Assembly (NCBI GenBank): GCA_013215175.1
Contig: JABSRH010000008.1
Coordinates: 1 to 33,448, forward strand
Reading direction: 5' to 3'
DNA length: 33,448 bases
From: Parvularculaceae bacterium
GTDB taxonomy: Bacteria; Pseudomonadota; Alphaproteobacteria; Caulobacterales; Parvularculaceae
How positions within the stretch are numbered: position 1 is the stretch's first letter; each line of letters starts with the position of its first letter. Below the pieces are notes generated by a model, which was not told where the DNA came from, made no database searches, and saw only the letters and a program-made list of their open reading frames with translations. Of this stretch, positions 17,977 to 24,073 are shown piece after piece. A program made the position numbers and the translations under genes.

Positions 17977-18564
17977 ATGAACCAGCCAACGGAACAGTTG
18001 GGCACCACCAATGCCAGAGATGCCGACGTTGCGTTGATGCAGATGATTGCGCAAGGCAATGAAAAGGCGATGGAAAACCTGTATCGTAAGCATCAATCCG
18101 CTGTCTTCGCCTTCGCGATGAGCCGCATTGGCGACCGCTCCCAGGCTTGGGATGTGGTCCACGACGTCATGGTGGATGTCTGGCGCAAGGCTGGCAGTTA
18201 TTCCGGCAAGGCTTCGGTTCGCACGTGGGTGCTCACGCTCACCCGGAATAAGGCTATTGATCGATTGCGCCGGGGTGTGCGGATGGATTATGGCGACGAC
18301 GGGCTCGACCTTGTTTCCGATGCACCATCACAAGAGGATGATCTTCTCGCTGAAGAGCAAGCGAAGCAGGTTCGTGCGTGCATGGACCAATTGCCGCCGA
18401 AACGCCGCGGCGTCCTCCACCTCGCGTTCTTCGAAGATCGCACGTACCCGGAGATTGCTAAGATCGAGGGAATTGCTGTCGGTACGGTCAAATCGCACGT
18501 ACACGATGCAAAAAAAGCCTTGGCTTCTTGCCTGAAGGCTCTGCTCGACGTGGTGACCGGCTAG
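17977..18564 (+). CDS. ECF-type RNA polymerase sigma factor
   Basis: This 195-residue group IV sigma factor has region 2 (about 35-105; LYRKHQSAVFAFAMSRIGD, then VHDVMVDVWRKAGSYSGKASVRTWVLTLTRNKAIDRLRR) and region 4 (about 135-185; MDQLPPKRRGVLHLAFFEDRTYPEIAKIEGIAVGTVKSHVHDAKKAL), without regions 1.1 or 3. GGGGAGGAG lies upstream of the ATG. Unusually, the likely anti-sigma gene is on the opposite strand and the two stop codons overlap by 4 bp, so the pair is not in one operon. A TGAACC box 77 bp upstream could be an ECF -35 element. Confidence 0.93.
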   Translation: MNQPTEQLGTTNARDADVALMQMIAQGNEKAMENLYRKHQSAVFAFAMSRIGDRSQAWDVVHDVMVDVWRKAGSYSGKASVRTWVLTLTRNKAIDRLRRGVRMDYGDDGLDLVSDAPSQEDDLLAEEQAKQVRACMDQLPPKRRGVLHLAFFEDRTYPEIAKIEGIAVGTVKSHVHDAKKALASCLKALLDVVTG

Positions 18565-19127
18565 TTCCGCTGAACGCTTTCCACGAGATCATCGGCTTCT
18601 TCGAGGGCGGATTGCACCTCCTCCAATGTCCCTTCCCGCGTAGCAGCAATCTCATAAAGACCGAGTGCAGATGGTCCGCTCACAAACGTTGCATCCACTG
18701 ACAGCAACAGGGCACGAATATCCGCCTCGGTAGCTTCCGGTACAAAGGCCACGGTGAGGGTCGGTCGCTCTTCGGTGCTCCCTGCCGTCTGGTAGGTGGC
18801 ATCGTCTTTCACTGGCGCTGTGGTGAACAGCGAGCCTGCAAACTGGACTGTCAAGGCGACGAGCGCGATGGAGGCGGCGAGCTGCCAAGGGGCCACACGC
18901 TTTTGGCTCCACCACGGGCCATCAATGACCGTTGGCGCGGCTTCCCGATCGGCTTCGATCGTCCGCTTGACCCGTTGCCAAGCGAAGTCGTTGAAGGGCT
19001 CTTCTTCGGGCTGAGCCAGGAGGATCTTCTCAGCCAAGGCACGATCCTGGTGATCTTCTGGCGTCGCATCAGCGGGCAAGGGGCGTCCCTCCCGGATGTC
19101 GCGGAGATGGTCTTTCAGGTCAGCCAC
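18561..19127 (-). CDS. Membrane protein with subtilisin-propeptide-like periplasmic domain, probable anti-sigma factor
   Basis: This 188-residue protein has a charged cytoplasmic half (1-80; NDFAWQRVKRTIEADRE), one membrane helix at about 82-101 (WQLAASIALVALTVQFAGSL) and a periplasmic tail. It has no cysteine, so it is not a zinc (ZAS) anti-sigma factor. Its size, topology and position beside an ECF sigma gene fit an anti-sigma factor. The tail (122-188) reads LTVAFVPEATEADIRALL, then GPSALGLYEI, then EVQSALEEADDLVESVQ. This beta-alpha-beta-beta-alpha-beta order is that of inhibitor I9/fervidolysin-type subtilisin propeptides. An S8 subtilisin is encoded 1.2 kb away. Anti-sigma function and the I9 likeness are inferences. 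Confidence 0.68.
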   Translation of the reverse strand: MADLKDHLRDIREGRPLPADATPEDHQDRALAEKILLAQPEEEPFNDFAWQRVKRTIEADREAAPTVIDGPWWSQKRVAPWQLAASIALVALTVQFAGSLFTTAPVKDDATYQTAGSTEERPTLTVAFVPEATEADIRALLLSVDATFVSGPSALGLYEIAATREGTLEEVQSALEEADDLVESVQRN

Positions 19128-19238: not shown

Positions 19239-20342
19239 ATGGTGGTCTTGGCAGCTTTGCTCAACGTCGCGGCTGGCGCTGCGCCCGTGAGCTTGCCTGT
19301 CGAGCTCGGCGGTTTTGCGCGCCTGCGTTACGAGCTGAGTGACGCCGACAGCGCGCCGGAACCCAGCGACGCCCTAACCTTAGCCGTGAGAAGCTTCGCC
19401 GTTTACGAGCCCAGCCGGTCGTGGTCTTTCCTGGCGGAGGTCGAGGCTGTGGGCGTCCTCGCTGGCGAGTTTGATGACGGCGAGGGCCTGCCGGATGGCA
19501 CCGTGCCGATCCCGGACCCGGCGGCGTTCAATCTCAACCGGCTCTATGTCAGTTATCGCCCGGACGACCAGACCTTCGACGGTGGAAGAGCAGTGGTCAC
19601 TTTGCCCTCGGGCCTTTCTGTCGATTTCAGCATCGTCGACGCCGTGCAGCGGCCGGCCGGCTTGCGGCGCACGCCGCAGCACCTGGGCGGATCCGCAACG
19701 TTTTTAAAGACAGAGGTCCCGACGCGGGCGGGCCTCCTCCACGGCTTCCGCTATGATCTCCAGTTCGGTGAGAACGGCGTGCCGTCGGCCCTGCCGGCGG
19801 GGCGCTCGGTGACCTATGGCGCGGGTCTCGATGGTCGTTGGGGCGGCGCGCCGTGGGCTCTGCGCTGGTCCTTCGCCCTGGCGCAGCAAGCAACGGACGA
19901 TGACCGGCCGGGGCTCTCAGGGACTGCGCCCTACGGCAAGGCCGAGCTCGCGGTGGAACGCCAGCGCACCGACGTCATCTGGCGCTATGAGCGCTTAGCA
20001 GGTGGCAACGCACCATTTCGAACACCGCTCGCCACGCTCCATCGCTTTCAAGGGTTTGCCGACGTCTTTCTGGTGACGCCCAATCAAGGGGTTGAGGACA
20101 ATTCCCTCGAGATCCGGCACCGCCTGGGTCGCGTTGGCCCCATGCGAAGGGTTGGTGGTTTTGTGCGTGTGCACGACTTCAACGCCACCGAAGGATCGGG
20201 CGATCTTGGCCACGAGATCGATGTGGGCGTCGCTGGCTCCTTTAGAGGCGTGCGGTTTTCGCTTCAGCGCGCCCAATATTGGAGTGATGGCTTCGCATCA
20301 GACACCGAGCGCTGGTTTTTGACCGCCGGCCGTAGCTTCTAA
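19239..20342 (+). CDS. Outer-membrane beta-barrel protein, porin/alginate-export-like
   Basis: This 367-residue protein has a short N-terminal hydrophobic stretch (VVLAALLNVAAGAAP), probably a signal peptide cut after an Ala-rich site. Alternating strands follow, such as LGGFARLRYELSD, SFLAEVEAVGVLAG and RLYVSYRP, and the last residue is Phe (WFLTAGRSF), the usual outer-membrane assembly signal. The strand pattern (LTLAVRSFAVYEPSRSWSFLAEVE) resembles alginate-export-family porin-like proteins of alphaproteobacteria. It lies 5' of the S8 protease gene with only 31 bp between, so both are likely co-transcribed. A pore for a secreted product or solute is plausible. The family match is moderate. 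Confidence 0.66.
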   Translation: MVVLAALLNVAAGAAPVSLPVELGGFARLRYELSDADSAPEPSDALTLAVRSFAVYEPSRSWSFLAEVEAVGVLAGEFDDGEGLPDGTVPIPDPAAFNLNRLYVSYRPDDQTFDGGRAVVTLPSGLSVDFSIVDAVQRPAGLRRTPQHLGGSATFLKTEVPTRAGLLHGFRYDLQFGENGVPSALPAGRSVTYGAGLDGRWGGAPWALRWSFALAQQATDDDRPGLSGTAPYGKAELAVERQRTDVIWRYERLAGGNAPFRTPLATLHRFQGFADVFLVTPNQGVEDNSLEIRHRLGRVGPMRRVGGFVRVHDFNATEGSGDLGHEIDVGVAGSFRGVRFSLQRAQYWSDGFASDTERWFLTAGRSF

Positions 20343-20373: not shown

Positions 20374-21537
20374 ATGACTGATCCCAGCGTCGCCTTCTTT
20401 CGCTTCGTTCGCCGTGCCTGGCAGTTGCCCCTGCTGTTGGCGCTGGGTGCGCTTGCTGCTTGTGAGAGCACGACATTATCGCTTGCGCCGCTGAATGAGA
20501 TCCTGGCCGACCTCGACGATGTCGTGGCTGAAAATGAGATCGTCGTGCTGGCAGAGACGAAAGACGCGGCGCAGACGTTGGCCATGAGATCTCGACCGCT
20601 CGGTTATCGTGTGCGGACGACGGAGGAGCTCACAGCGCTGGGTATGACGCAGCTGGTGCTGGATGTGCCGGCAGGCCGGACCGCGATGCAGGCCATCGGC
20701 GAGCTTGAGCGCTTGGCCCCAGGGATCACCGCAGGCGCGAACCATGCCTACCGCGCCCAGGGCGTCGCCTCGCCGCGCACCTATGCGGCCGAGGCGATCG
20801 GTTGGGCCAACGCAAGCTGTACGATGCGCCATCCTGTGGGTGTGCTGGATAGCGGTGGTAGTTTGGAAAGCGGCGCCCTAAGCGTCACGGATTTCACTGG
20901 TGGTCGTCCTAGTGCGGATGACCATGGTGCGGAAATCGTTCGGCAGCTTTCAAGCCCAGACCTCTTCACCCAAGCGCAAGTCCATCTCGGTGTAGTAGTC
21001 AGGAACTCGGACGGTGCCGCGGGAGAAGCGGGTGTCGATGACCTCATCCGTGGCATTGATGGCTTCCTGGCGCGGGGCGTGCGGATCATGAACGTGAGCC
21101 TATCGGGTCCCTACAACATGCTACTCGACCGCGCCGTACAAAGAGCGTCGCAACGCGGTGCGATCATTGTGGCGGCGGTGGGGAACGATGGGCCGCAAGC
21201 AAAGCCGCGATACCCCGCAGCCTTTCGGCAAGTGATTGCTGTGACGGCGGTCGATGCCGCTGACCAGCCTTACCAGCGGGCGGTGCGCGGGCGGCATGTG
21301 GATGTGGCCGCGCCCGGTGTTCAGATCTTCATCGACTACAAGGACGGCCTTTATAGAACGGGTACGTCTTACGCTGCTCCCTATGTCACCGCGCTTCTAG
21401 CGGCGGGTGAGCAACACCCTGTGTCGGTTCGTGAGGCGCGGAAGATGATTTATGCCCGGACGGATGATCTTGGTGCAGAGGGCAGGGACGCCATTTACGG
21501 TGTCGGCCGGTTGAATGCACAATCCGCCTGCCAATAA
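20374..21537 (+). CDS. S8 (subtilisin-like) serine peptidase, lipoprotein
   Basis: From ATG 20374 (387 aa; a TTG at 20347 is the longer alternative) the protein begins with a lipoprotein signal, lipobox LAAC with Cys30. Residues 53-127 form a propeptide-like domain (EIVVLAETKD to GITAGANHAYR). The catalytic triad is Asp159 (GVLDSGG), His184 (DDHGAEIV) and Ser332 (GTSYAAPYVTALL), with the oxyanion Asn271 in AAVGNDGP. It should be an active peptidase anchored to the inner or outer membrane and facing the periplasm or surface. It follows the barrel gene closely and precedes the VPLPA-type surface protein. Likely targets are the neighbouring membrane anti-sigma protein or the surface protein; this is inferred from context. 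Confidence 0.9.
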   Translation: MTDPSVAFFRFVRRAWQLPLLLALGALAACESTTLSLAPLNEILADLDDVVAENEIVVLAETKDAAQTLAMRSRPLGYRVRTTEELTALGMTQLVLDVPAGRTAMQAIGELERLAPGITAGANHAYRAQGVASPRTYAAEAIGWANASCTMRHPVGVLDSGGSLESGALSVTDFTGGRPSADDHGAEIVRQLSSPDLFTQAQVHLGVVVRNSDGAAGEAGVDDLIRGIDGFLARGVRIMNVSLSGPYNMLLDRAVQRASQRGAIIVAAVGNDGPQAKPRYPAAFRQVIAVTAVDAADQPYQRAVRGRHVDVAAPGVQIFIDYKDGLYRTGTSYAAPYVTALLAAGEQHPVSVREARKMIYARTDDLGAEGRDAIYGVGRLNAQSACQ

Positions 21538-21682: not shown

Positions 21683-24073
21683 ATGACCCAAATCTCGAAT
21701 GGAAATCGCTCTACCGTATACGGTAAGAAAGCAGCTCTCATGGCTGTAGCCAGCACGCTAGCGCTCGCCACTTCGGCCTACGCTCAGACGGAAACCATCG
21801 ACACAGATGGCGCCCTCGTTAGCAAACCAGCTGACGCTGACGTGCTCGTCGCTGACGCGCCAGCGGTGGTGATCGACGCCAATGACGTGGTACTGACCAA
21901 CGCTGGCCGTCTCGCCACGTCAGGTGTCACCCAGACGATCCAAATCAATGACGGCACCACCGACACCATGGTGAAGAACCAACAAACGGGCGAGATTGTT
22001 GACTTCTCCCGTGCGGTCGATGTGCGCGGCGACAACGCCACGGTGGCAAACGCGGGTCTGATCGGCGCGACGGGCGATCAGCGCAACGGTGTGATCTACA
22101 CGAACGATACTGCCAACGGCTTCACCATCCAGAACCAAGCCCCTGGCTCCATTGATCCGGGTTCGGTCTATTCAGGCGCGGCGATCTCCATCTCGCTCGA
22201 CCCCAACAACCCCACAGAGGGCACGATCACCAACGCTGGTAGCATTGCTGGTCGCGGAAACGCGGGCGCCGGTACGGGCCTAGCAGGCGATGGTATCCGG
22301 TTTGAGACGGTTCGCGCGGGCGGTGCCCTTGGCGTCAACGCGGGCACGTTCGAAGGCGATATCACCAACGCTGGTACGATCTCGTCAGACGGGGCCAACG
22401 GCACCGTTGCAGGCATTCGCTTCGTGAACGGTGTTTCTTTTGATGGTCGCCTCACCAACGAGGTCACTGGTGTGATCTCAGGTACCCAGAACGGCGTCTA
22501 TTTCGGTAACGCGATCCCAGCGGGCGGCGGTGATTTCTCGAACGCCAACCTCGACAATTTCGGCACGATCTCCTCCGGTAGTCGTGCACTGAACATTGAT
22601 GGCGATGGCCTCACCGTCATCAACTCAGGCAGCATTCTCGGCACAGGCAACCAGCGCAATGGTACGATCTACGCTGACAGCACGGCGCAGAATTTCCGCA
22701 TTGCCAACAGTGGTTTGATTGACGCCGGTGTCGGCAACCAAGGCGCTGCATTCTCGGTCGAGCTGACCTCGACGGGCAATGATTTCACCATCGACAATAG
22801 TGGCCACATCTATGGTCGCGGTCAGGCCAGTGCGGGCGCAGCGACGGCAGGTGACGGCCTACGCTTTGAACGGACGCGGGTCGGCGGCGCCCTCGACGGC
22901 ACAACGAGCGGCCTCTTCACGGGCGACATCATCAATAGCGGCGTGATTGCATCGGAGTCGGCCCAAGGCACGGCTGGCGGCATCCGCTTCGTGAACGGCG
23001 TTTCCTTCAGTGGTGAGATCAACAACAGTGGCACGATCAAGGGTGTGCAGAACGGTCTCTATTTCGGTAACCCAACGCCAGCAGGCGGCGGCGACTTCAC
23101 GGGCGCAGTGGTCAACAACACAGGTACCATCAGCTCAGGTAGTCGTGCACTGAACATTGATGGCCGTGGCCTGTCGGTAAACAATGACGGCTACATCCTC
23201 AGCACGGGCAACCAACGCAACGGTACTGTCTATGTCGATGGCACAGCAAACGCCTTCACCGTCAACAACCGCCTCGGCGGTGTGGTGGATGCGGGCAAGG
23301 GCAACAACGGCTCAGGCGTTAGCATCCAAGTCGGTGCCGCCGATGGCGCGACGCAGACGTTCTCGCTGAACAACAAAGGCACCATCGCCGGGCGTGGCGA
23401 CAGCCTCCCATCAGGCGAAGCAGCTGGCCTTCGTTTGTTCGGCGGCGCGGCCAACACCTCCGCCGCGGCCAACATCACCAACACGGGCAAGATCTCCTCG
23501 GAAACGTCCGCAGCCGTCCTGATTGAAGGTGTTGATTTCACCGGAACGTTCACCAACGGCGGTGAGCTCTACGGCCCCCGCGCCTTTGATGCCAGCGCGG
23601 CCACAGGCGGCGTGAACTTCGTGCAAGTGGGCGGATCGCTCAAAGGCTCCTTCGAAGGTTCAGGCTTTGCCGACAGCATCGAATTTGCGGGTGGTCGCTT
23701 TGGAGGTGAGGTCAACCTCAATGGCGGTGATGACATCTTTACACTGATCAGCGATGCCCTGAGTGGGGGCACGACGCGGATCGACTTTGGCGATGGTTCG
23801 GACACGTTCGCGTTCAGCCTCGACGACTTCGACGCCACCTTTGCCGAAACAGGCGCCTTCGCAGGTATCCTGGAAGCGACGAGTTCAGCCGGAACTGTCA
23901 GCCGGTTCGTTCTTGCCAACATCGAGAACTTCTCAATCGATGGACGGCTCGTTTCCTTTGCGAACCTCGATGGCGTCATCCCAGTGGGGGAAGTCCCGAT
24001 CCCCGGTGCACTGCCGCTCTTTGCCGGGAGCATCCTAGCAGGAGCTTGGGCACGTCGCCGTCGCCGCGCTTAG
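21683..24073 (+). CDS. Large secreted beta-solenoid protein with VPLPA-CTERM-like sorting signal
   Basis: This 796-residue protein has a signal peptide with a long n-region ending SAYA-Q (cleavage after about 34). Most of the chain consists of short NxGxI-type turns (ITNAGTIS, INNSGTIKG), as in right-handed beta-helix adhesins and autotransporter passengers, but no autotransporter barrel follows. Two full repeats and one partial repeat of 187-191 residues are visible. The end is VPIPGALPLFAGSILAGAWARRRRRA, which is a PEP/VPLPA-CTERM signal: motif, one membrane helix and an Arg cluster, normally processed by an exosortase/XrtD-type enzyme. AGAGGA precedes the ATG. No cysteines are visible. It is likely a cell-surface adhesin or matrix protein; no exosortase gene is in the window. 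Confidence 0.85.
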   Translation: MTQISNGNRSTVYGKKAALMAVASTLALATSAYAQTETIDTDGALVSKPADADVLVADAPAVVIDANDVVLTNAGRLATSGVTQTIQINDGTTDTMVKNQQTGEIVDFSRAVDVRGDNATVANAGLIGATGDQRNGVIYTNDTANGFTIQNQAPGSIDPGSVYSGAAISISLDPNNPTEGTITNAGSIAGRGNAGAGTGLAGDGIRFETVRAGGALGVNAGTFEGDITNAGTISSDGANGTVAGIRFVNGVSFDGRLTNEVTGVISGTQNGVYFGNAIPAGGGDFSNANLDNFGTISSGSRALNIDGDGLTVINSGSILGTGNQRNGTIYADSTAQNFRIANSGLIDAGVGNQGAAFSVELTSTGNDFTIDNSGHIYGRGQASAGAATAGDGLRFERTRVGGALDGTTSGLFTGDIINSGVIASESAQGTAGGIRFVNGVSFSGEINNSGTIKGVQNGLYFGNPTPAGGGDFTGAVVNNTGTISSGSRALNIDGRGLSVNNDGYILSTGNQRNGTVYVDGTANAFTVNNRLGGVVDAGKGNNGSGVSIQVGAADGATQTFSLNNKGTIAGRGDSLPSGEAAGLRLFGGAANTSAAANITNTGKISSETSAAVLIEGVDFTGTFTNGGELYGPRAFDASAATGGVNFVQVGGSLKGSFEGSGFADSIEFAGGRFGGEVNLNGGDDIFTLISDALSGGTTRIDFGDGSDTFAFSLDDFDATFAETGAFAGILEATSSAGTVSRFVLANIENFSIDGRLVSFANLDGVIPVGEVPIPGALPLFAGSILAGAWARRRRRA
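22020..23300 (+). repeat. Tandem in-frame coding repeats of 573 and 561 bp
   Basis: The QRNG motif codons recur at 22079, 22652 and 23213, giving periods of 573 and 561 bp (191 and 187 codons). IRFVNGVSF, GGGDF and TISSGSRALNIDG recur at matching places. A 27-bp stretch, starting GGTAGTCGTGCACTGAACAT, is identical at 22577-22603 and 23138-23164. The DNA-level identity suggests recent duplication or gene conversion. Outer edges of the array are approximate. Confidence 0.8.

Follow-up and report, generated by a model that had tools for sequence, protein, structure and literature searches.

A propeptide-like periplasmic tail on membrane anti-sigma factors encoded beside subtilase or caspase genes: a candidate site-1 proteolysis module in Proteobacteria

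Which protease starts the release of a sigma factor is a recurring question in the study of extracytoplasmic function (ECF) sigma factors. The bacterial site-1 proteases listed in a review are DegS, DegP, SipS/SipT and Prc, with neither an S8 nor a C14 peptidase among them (PMC7593790). The anti-sigma factor RsiV is known to act as an enzyme-binding receptor (PMC5014341). Outside bacteria, a precedent for an S8 peptidase as site-1 protease is found in mammalian S1P, and the protein SPRING binds the S1P prodomain epitope outside the active site, permitting SREBP2 cleavage (PMC11231238).

This report addresses an ECF sigma and anti-sigma gene pair of a Parvularculaceae bacterium (assembly GCA_013215175.1), located in a window of 33,448 nucleotides, which is the whole stretch of DNA analysed (contig JABSRH010000008.1). 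A preliminary description of the sequence had proposed that the periplasmic domain of a probable anti-sigma factor resembles a subtilisin propeptide and could couple a nearby subtilisin to the sigma factor. We compared the locus with its relatives, and the tail marks a module that is widespread in Proteobacteria, in which a subtilase or a caspase gene nearly always adjoins the anti-sigma gene.

The locus and its genes

The features of the locus are collected in the table below. The ECF sigma factor P0003 scores 98.7 bits against TIGR02937 (sigma70-ECF, cut-off 42.9), and its gene converges on that of the anti-sigma factor P0001, with an overlap of 4 bp. P0001 consists of a short sigma-binding N-terminal part, a single membrane helix, a linker and a periplasmic tail, and the hydrophobic peak of the helix lines up across the alignment of the anti-sigma family. 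A zf-HC2 domain scores above its cut-off at the N-terminus of relatives with the same layout (L003 and L049), and the window protein has no zf-HC2 match. Position and layout fit a membrane-bound class I anti-sigma factor, and the identity first proposed is supported by the adjacent sigma gene and by the zf-HC2-bearing relatives. The region first singled out as propeptide-like (18561-18765) is likewise real, with a small correction: residues 122-188 correspond to 18564-18764, the quoted span including the stop codon and being one base off.

Features of the window at the anti-sigma locus, with coordinates on the forward strand
Feature	Coordinates	Strand	Basis
ECF sigma factor P0003, 195 aa	17977..18564	+	Pfam Sigma70_r2 3.7e-15, Sigma70_r4_2 2.1e-15
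Anti-sigma factor P0001, 188 aa, GTG start	18561..19127	-	Adjoins sigma gene; family alignments
Propeptide-fold tail of P0001, residues 117-188	18564..18779	-	AF2, Foldseek, PF22148 in relatives, arm length
Linker motif Y112-Q-T-A-G116 of P0001	18780..18794	-	Motif class varies with neighbouring protease
Predicted membrane helix of P0001, about residues 82-102	18822..18884	-	Sequence read directly (QLAASIALVALTVQFAGSLF)
Barrel-like gene between anti-sigma and protease	19239..20342	+	Outer-membrane-barrel-like by eye
S8 subtilase P0002, 387 aa from ATG	20374..21537	+	PF00082 1.1e-17
Repeat-rich large surface protein, directly 3' of protease	21683..24073	+	

The protease P0002 is placed in peptidase family S8 by its PF00082 match and an intact Asp/His/Ser triad. 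Residues D159, H184, N271 and S332 are present, the triad being D159, H184 and S332, and all 19 module S8 proteases compared agree in the triad and in the oxyanion Asn. P0002 is probably a lipoprotein, because it carries the lipobox LAAC30. It also has a prodomain of its own at about residues 53-127, with the same order of elements as the anti-sigma tail (pLDDT about 56-86 in an AF2 model built on two sequences, which is poor as a whole at pLDDT 40.6 and usable for the prodomain alone). The expectation of a nearby subtilisin with a similar domain of its own is thus upheld, with moderate confidence for the pro-segment.

The protease gene lies in a separate, divergent transcription unit together with the outer-membrane-like gene. 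The product of that gene has no Pfam or NCBIfam match, and its homologues occupy the same position in two modules of the same genus (L051 and L052). Inspection by eye of the regions upstream of the sigma and protease genes revealed no clear common promoter motif. An M50 site-2 protease is encoded in the genome (G000).

The repeat-rich protein has a homologue of 57-63% identity in one distant module (L102/L147), placed relative to the protease as in the window, and none was found in the other modules examined. In that alphaproteobacterial module, the homologue is an autotransporter-like protein of 1892 aa downstream of the S8 gene (L147:3561-9239, minus strand). Further homologues (G187:C27 and G265) lie away from any module. 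The repeat protein might be a cargo or substrate of the window protease, which is speculative; as a general substrate of the module it was dropped, since it recurs in only one other module.

Fold and ancestry of the tail

The tail alone (residues 117-188) was modelled by AF2 with confidence (mean pLDDT 90.8, pTM 0.73) from the window and L003 sequences, a two-sequence input. The predicted elements of the 72-aa construct (E8-12, H18-27, E30-34, E41-46, H52-61, E66-71) follow the beta-alpha-beta-beta-alpha-beta order that had been read from the letters, and together with the Foldseek matches they give the ferredoxin-like fold of PF22148. Among the 50 PDB matches listed by Foldseek, the top TM-score belongs to the prosegment of subtilisin BPN' (1spb_P, 0.67/0.68, 2.2 A over 69 columns). 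A second prosegment follows closely (1scj_B, TM 0.65/0.66), and EpiP and POIA1 are likewise among the matches listed. Since many structures share the ferredoxin-like fold, the Foldseek E-values come out weak (0.06), and the support therefore comes from sequence too.

Sequence profiles point to the fervidolysin type of propeptide. With E-values up to 10 allowed, PF22148 (Fervidolysin_NPro-like) finds seven of the 18 tails in the alignment, the best at 1.3e-6. Two full-length relatives pass its gathering cut-off of 21 bits (L050 with 27.0 and L003 with 23.0), and residues 122-188 of L003, whose tail is about 50% identical to that of the window, align to positions 17-81 of the 81-position model. 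The window protein itself has no Pfam match, PF22148 included. Inhibitor_I9 (PF05922) matches neither the window protein nor any of the 18 tails at E-values up to 10, so that of the I9/fervidolysin-like character first proposed, the fervidolysin half stands and the I9 half does not. PDB sequence searches with profiles of the tails and of the S8 prodomains returned nothing convincing.

Additionally, the tails can be aligned with the own prodomains of the module S8 proteases. The hhalign probability is 43-53%, below 90%, and the alignment is collinear over 66 columns, which is the whole domain; 13 control segments from sigma factors and S8 catalytic domains reach at most 2.5%. The LAEP signature of strand 4, typical of S8 propeptides, occurs in distant tails (L091, L096, L097, L102 and L105). 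Homology of the tail to fervidolysin-type S8 prodomains is supported by these sequence comparisons.

The tail departs from a classical propeptide at its end. In the BPN' prosegment, the chain runs on for 13 residues once strand 4 has begun, and the last of them form the active-site arm. Counted from the same point, 18 of 20 aligned tails end after 5-8 residues, the window tail after 7, and a typical tail is about six residues too short to supply the arm with which classical propeptides plug the active site. The arm of a classical inhibitory S8 propeptide is thus mostly absent, because the chain ends too early, and module S8 proteases retain a prodomain of their own. A tail lacking the arm is unlikely to be a tight inhibitor of the product type, and its shape would rather suit docking or licensing.

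Neighbouring proteases and the linker motif

Relatives were gathered solely by similarity to the anti-sigma or tail profile, so that the protease played no part in their choice, and a neighbour was scored when an S8 or C14 gene lay within 3 kb; L104, which the tail profile had picked up wrongly, was left out. An S8 gene adjoins 85 of 121 tail-bearing anti-sigma genes, a C14 caspase gene 30 and neither the remaining six, two of which (L205 and L206) lie near a contig end. Among tail-less control loci, similar to the anti-sigma in the N-terminal and membrane part only, the counts are 1/21 for S8 and 0/21 for C14. The first 59 loci gave a Fisher p of 2.9e-13, to be read with the fact that the sampled genomes include related species and the 121 loci are not independent. 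The proposed coupling of the tail to a neighbouring S8 protease is supported at the level of gene neighbourhood. The usual order of an S8 module is sigma, anti-sigma, S8, with the protease gene downstream of and co-directional with the anti-sigma gene in 41/48 modules, often with short overlaps; the window and its nearest kin have the divergent layout.

The sole control with an S8 gene is L124. There (L124:3640-6214), an S8 protease of the same clade is encoded beside an ECF sigma factor, and the anti-sigma factor has a different, unrelated periplasmic domain.

The caspase variant was first seen in L098, L100, L101, L138 and L143, with PF00656 E-values of 1e-32 to 1e-39 in L098, L100 and L101, and a family search around G640 and G843 brought many further C14 modules. 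The C14 genes stand in place of S8 genes (for example L100:4450-5256, minus; L138:5383-6351, plus; L177:5138-7195, plus) in the 30 tail-bearing modules. At least two C14-module genomes, G619 (L101) and G894 (L143), both scored 100% complete, contain no S8 gene anywhere, and docking of an S8 protease therefore cannot be the only role of the tail.

Some C14 modules have further particularities. In L098 (4911-5582, minus) and L101 (4945-5358, minus), a second small membrane protein with the same tail and no sigma-binding part is encoded beside the full anti-sigma factor; these tail-only proteins are possibly decoys or accessory sensors. A subtype with larger anti-sigma factors (about 360-460 aa) and a metacaspase-like C14 protease is represented by L103, L153, L170, L177 and L207. 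In L177 and L103, the upstream sigma-like protein lacks either a Pfam hit or similarity to the sigma query.

Between the membrane helix and the tail, the linker motif differs with the class of the neighbouring protease. Linkers beside S8 genes carry [YFLM]-x-[TVPA]-[AL]-[SGATE], typically Y-x-T-[A/L]-[S/G] and YQTAG in the window, and those beside C14 genes carry a hydrophobic-Arg-small motif. The S8-type motif is found in 65/85 linkers with S8 and 0/30 with C14. Twenty of the 85 S8 linkers are without it, including L039 from the window's own clade. The motif was defined on sets 1-3 and then tried on the newly fetched set 4, where it was present in 28/36 S8 and 0/22 C14 linkers (p = 1.1e-9). 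The Arg motif [LIVMFWT]R[AGSTND] occurs in 28/30 C14 and 11/85 S8 linkers, in a form widened post hoc, after set 4; the earlier narrow form [TVM]R[GAN], fixed beforehand, matched only 2/17 in set 4. The Arg motif in loci scored as having no protease led to overlooked adjacent divergent C14 genes, in L177 (4.9e-15) and L175 (2.7e-8) by Pfam and in L103, L153, L170 and L207 by profile.

These counts have to be read on the phylogeny. A tree of 97 sigma factors holds about four changes of protease class, at least two of them on well-supported branches, and with so few switches, p-values from counting sequences overstate the case. Tree-aware pairing gave two well-supported pairs (four at most), with the Arg motif going in the same direction in 1.7 of 2 on average; with only two to four independent pairs, such a test cannot reach significance.

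Subtilisins prefer an aromatic or hydrophobic residue at P4 and a hydrophobic or small one at P1, and metacaspase-like C14 enzymes cleave after Arg or Lys. By these general preferences, both linker motifs fit the protease that they accompany. The putative site-1 cleavage site of the window anti-sigma factor would be Y112-Q-T-A-G116, with P4 Tyr to P1 Ala and Gly at P1'.

A candidate mechanism, its alternatives and known systems

The window contains a single copy of a conserved signalling module with three parts, an ECF sigma factor, a membrane anti-sigma factor with a propeptide-like periplasmic tail and a secreted S8 protease. In the reading that we prefer, and to which we give an even chance, the S8 protease acts on its own anti-sigma factor as site-1 protease, with the tail as docking domain and the linker as cleavage site. 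The tail, derived from a propeptide, would hold the S8 protease as an exosite, and the protease, probably a lipoprotein in the window, would cut at Y112-Q-T-A-G116 in the flexible linker that joins the tail to the membrane helix. After the cut, a short stub would remain in the membrane as substrate of the site-2 protease, and the sigma factor would be released. We infer this direction of signalling, as we do the physical docking and the cut in the linker.

The neighbouring protease is proposed to cut the linker because linker motif and protease class change together, and the tail, as a homologue of S8 prodomains, is the obvious candidate surface for S8 docking. The preliminary description had left the tail as sensor, substrate or inhibitor. 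As the linker motif follows the protease class, substrate plus docking is the likelier role, and the inhibitor part loses ground with the missing arm. The related proposal of docking in trans as a propeptide keeps its fold, its homology and its S8 neighbour, and is weakened by the absent arm and by the tails beside C14 genes. Against the S8-docking model itself stands the S8 module of L124 with its unrelated anti-sigma ectodomain, by which the tail is not indispensable to an S8 module.

More tentatively, the anti-sigma family may have taken over, from an S8 propeptide, the half that binds the exosite and not the inhibitory arm, thereby recruiting and licensing its own site-1 protease. The arrangement would be plug-and-play, with the S8 protease replaceable by an Arg-directed C14 caspase and a matching linker motif. 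To our knowledge, no earlier case is known of a bacterial anti-sigma factor whose site-1 step is driven by an S8 protease or a caspase.

Among the alternatives, the protease could be simply an output of the sigma factor, the tail sensing a peptide or ligand and the neighbourhood reflecting co-regulation alone. Proteases are common regulon members, and the window protease sits in its own divergent unit with an outer-membrane-like gene. However, co-regulation leaves unexplained both the protease-prodomain homology of the tail and the switch of linker motif with protease class, and inspection by eye turned up no promoter motif in common; we consider it unlikely. Less probable still is an elaboration of the docking model, in which the armless tail displaces the inhibitory prodomain of the S8 protease from a shared surface and so activates the protease beside its substrate. 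It has a parallel in SPRING, which shares the S1P prodomain epitope on the S8 domain, stays out of the active site and licenses cleavage (PMC11231238), and it agrees with a prodomain homologue without an arm, but the C14 modules are left unexplained. Equally doubtful is a tail bound in the S8 active site in the manner of a cleaved propeptide, which would hold the protease inactive or report protease that is free, with titration or digestion of the tail signalling to the sigma factor as in RsiV with lysozyme. In its favour are the S8-prodomain fold and homology, the S8 adjacency and the precedent of RsiV, an anti-sigma factor that uses its ectodomain to bind and inhibit the very enzyme that it senses (PMC5014341). 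Against it are tails too short for an arm, S8 proteases that have their own prodomain, and at least two complete genomes in which a C14 module retains the tail and no S8 is present.

If the preferred reading of the S8 protease as site-1 protease is true, the anti-sigma linker tells both protease class and cut site, for at least 121 cases sampled across Proteobacteria, and a signalling role is added for S8 proteases and for bacterial caspases. A literature search returned no paper describing the tail or the module; the major ECF classifications lay outside its coverage, and an earlier mention there is possible.

The closest structural relatives of the tail, the fervidolysin-type prodomains (PF22148) and the BPN' prosegment (1spb_P, 1scj_B), share its beta-alpha-beta-beta-alpha-beta fold. 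Unlike them, the tail is borne by a membrane anti-sigma factor, mostly lacks the arm and is also found beside C14 caspases. RsiV, the lysozyme receptor of the sigma-V system of Bacillus subtilis, is likewise an anti-sigma factor with an enzyme-binding ectodomain, with release by regulated intramembrane proteolysis. However, the enzyme that RsiV senses is foreign, and signal peptidase makes the cut, whereas the likely partner here is a co-encoded protease, and a relation between RsiV and the window anti-sigma factor was neither found nor expected. In RseA-DegS, MucA-AlgW and Prc-dependent site-1 cleavage, a periplasmic protease cuts a membrane-bound regulator outside the membrane, as is proposed here, but DegS and AlgW are S1 PDZ proteases and Prc belongs to S41, whereas the module proteases are S8 or C14. 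Mammalian S1P (MBTPS1) with SPRING is an S8-family site-1 protease controlled through its prodomain-binding surface; it is, however, a eukaryotic Golgi system, and SPRING is a protein apart from the substrate and not homologous to a prodomain. The ECF54-type sigma factors resemble the module in having subtilase and caspase-like CHAT genes in their context, but are proposed to dispense with an anti-sigma factor and to rely on proteolysis of the sigma factor (PMC8999054). We file the module as a variant of ECF/anti-sigma signalling with regulated proteolysis.
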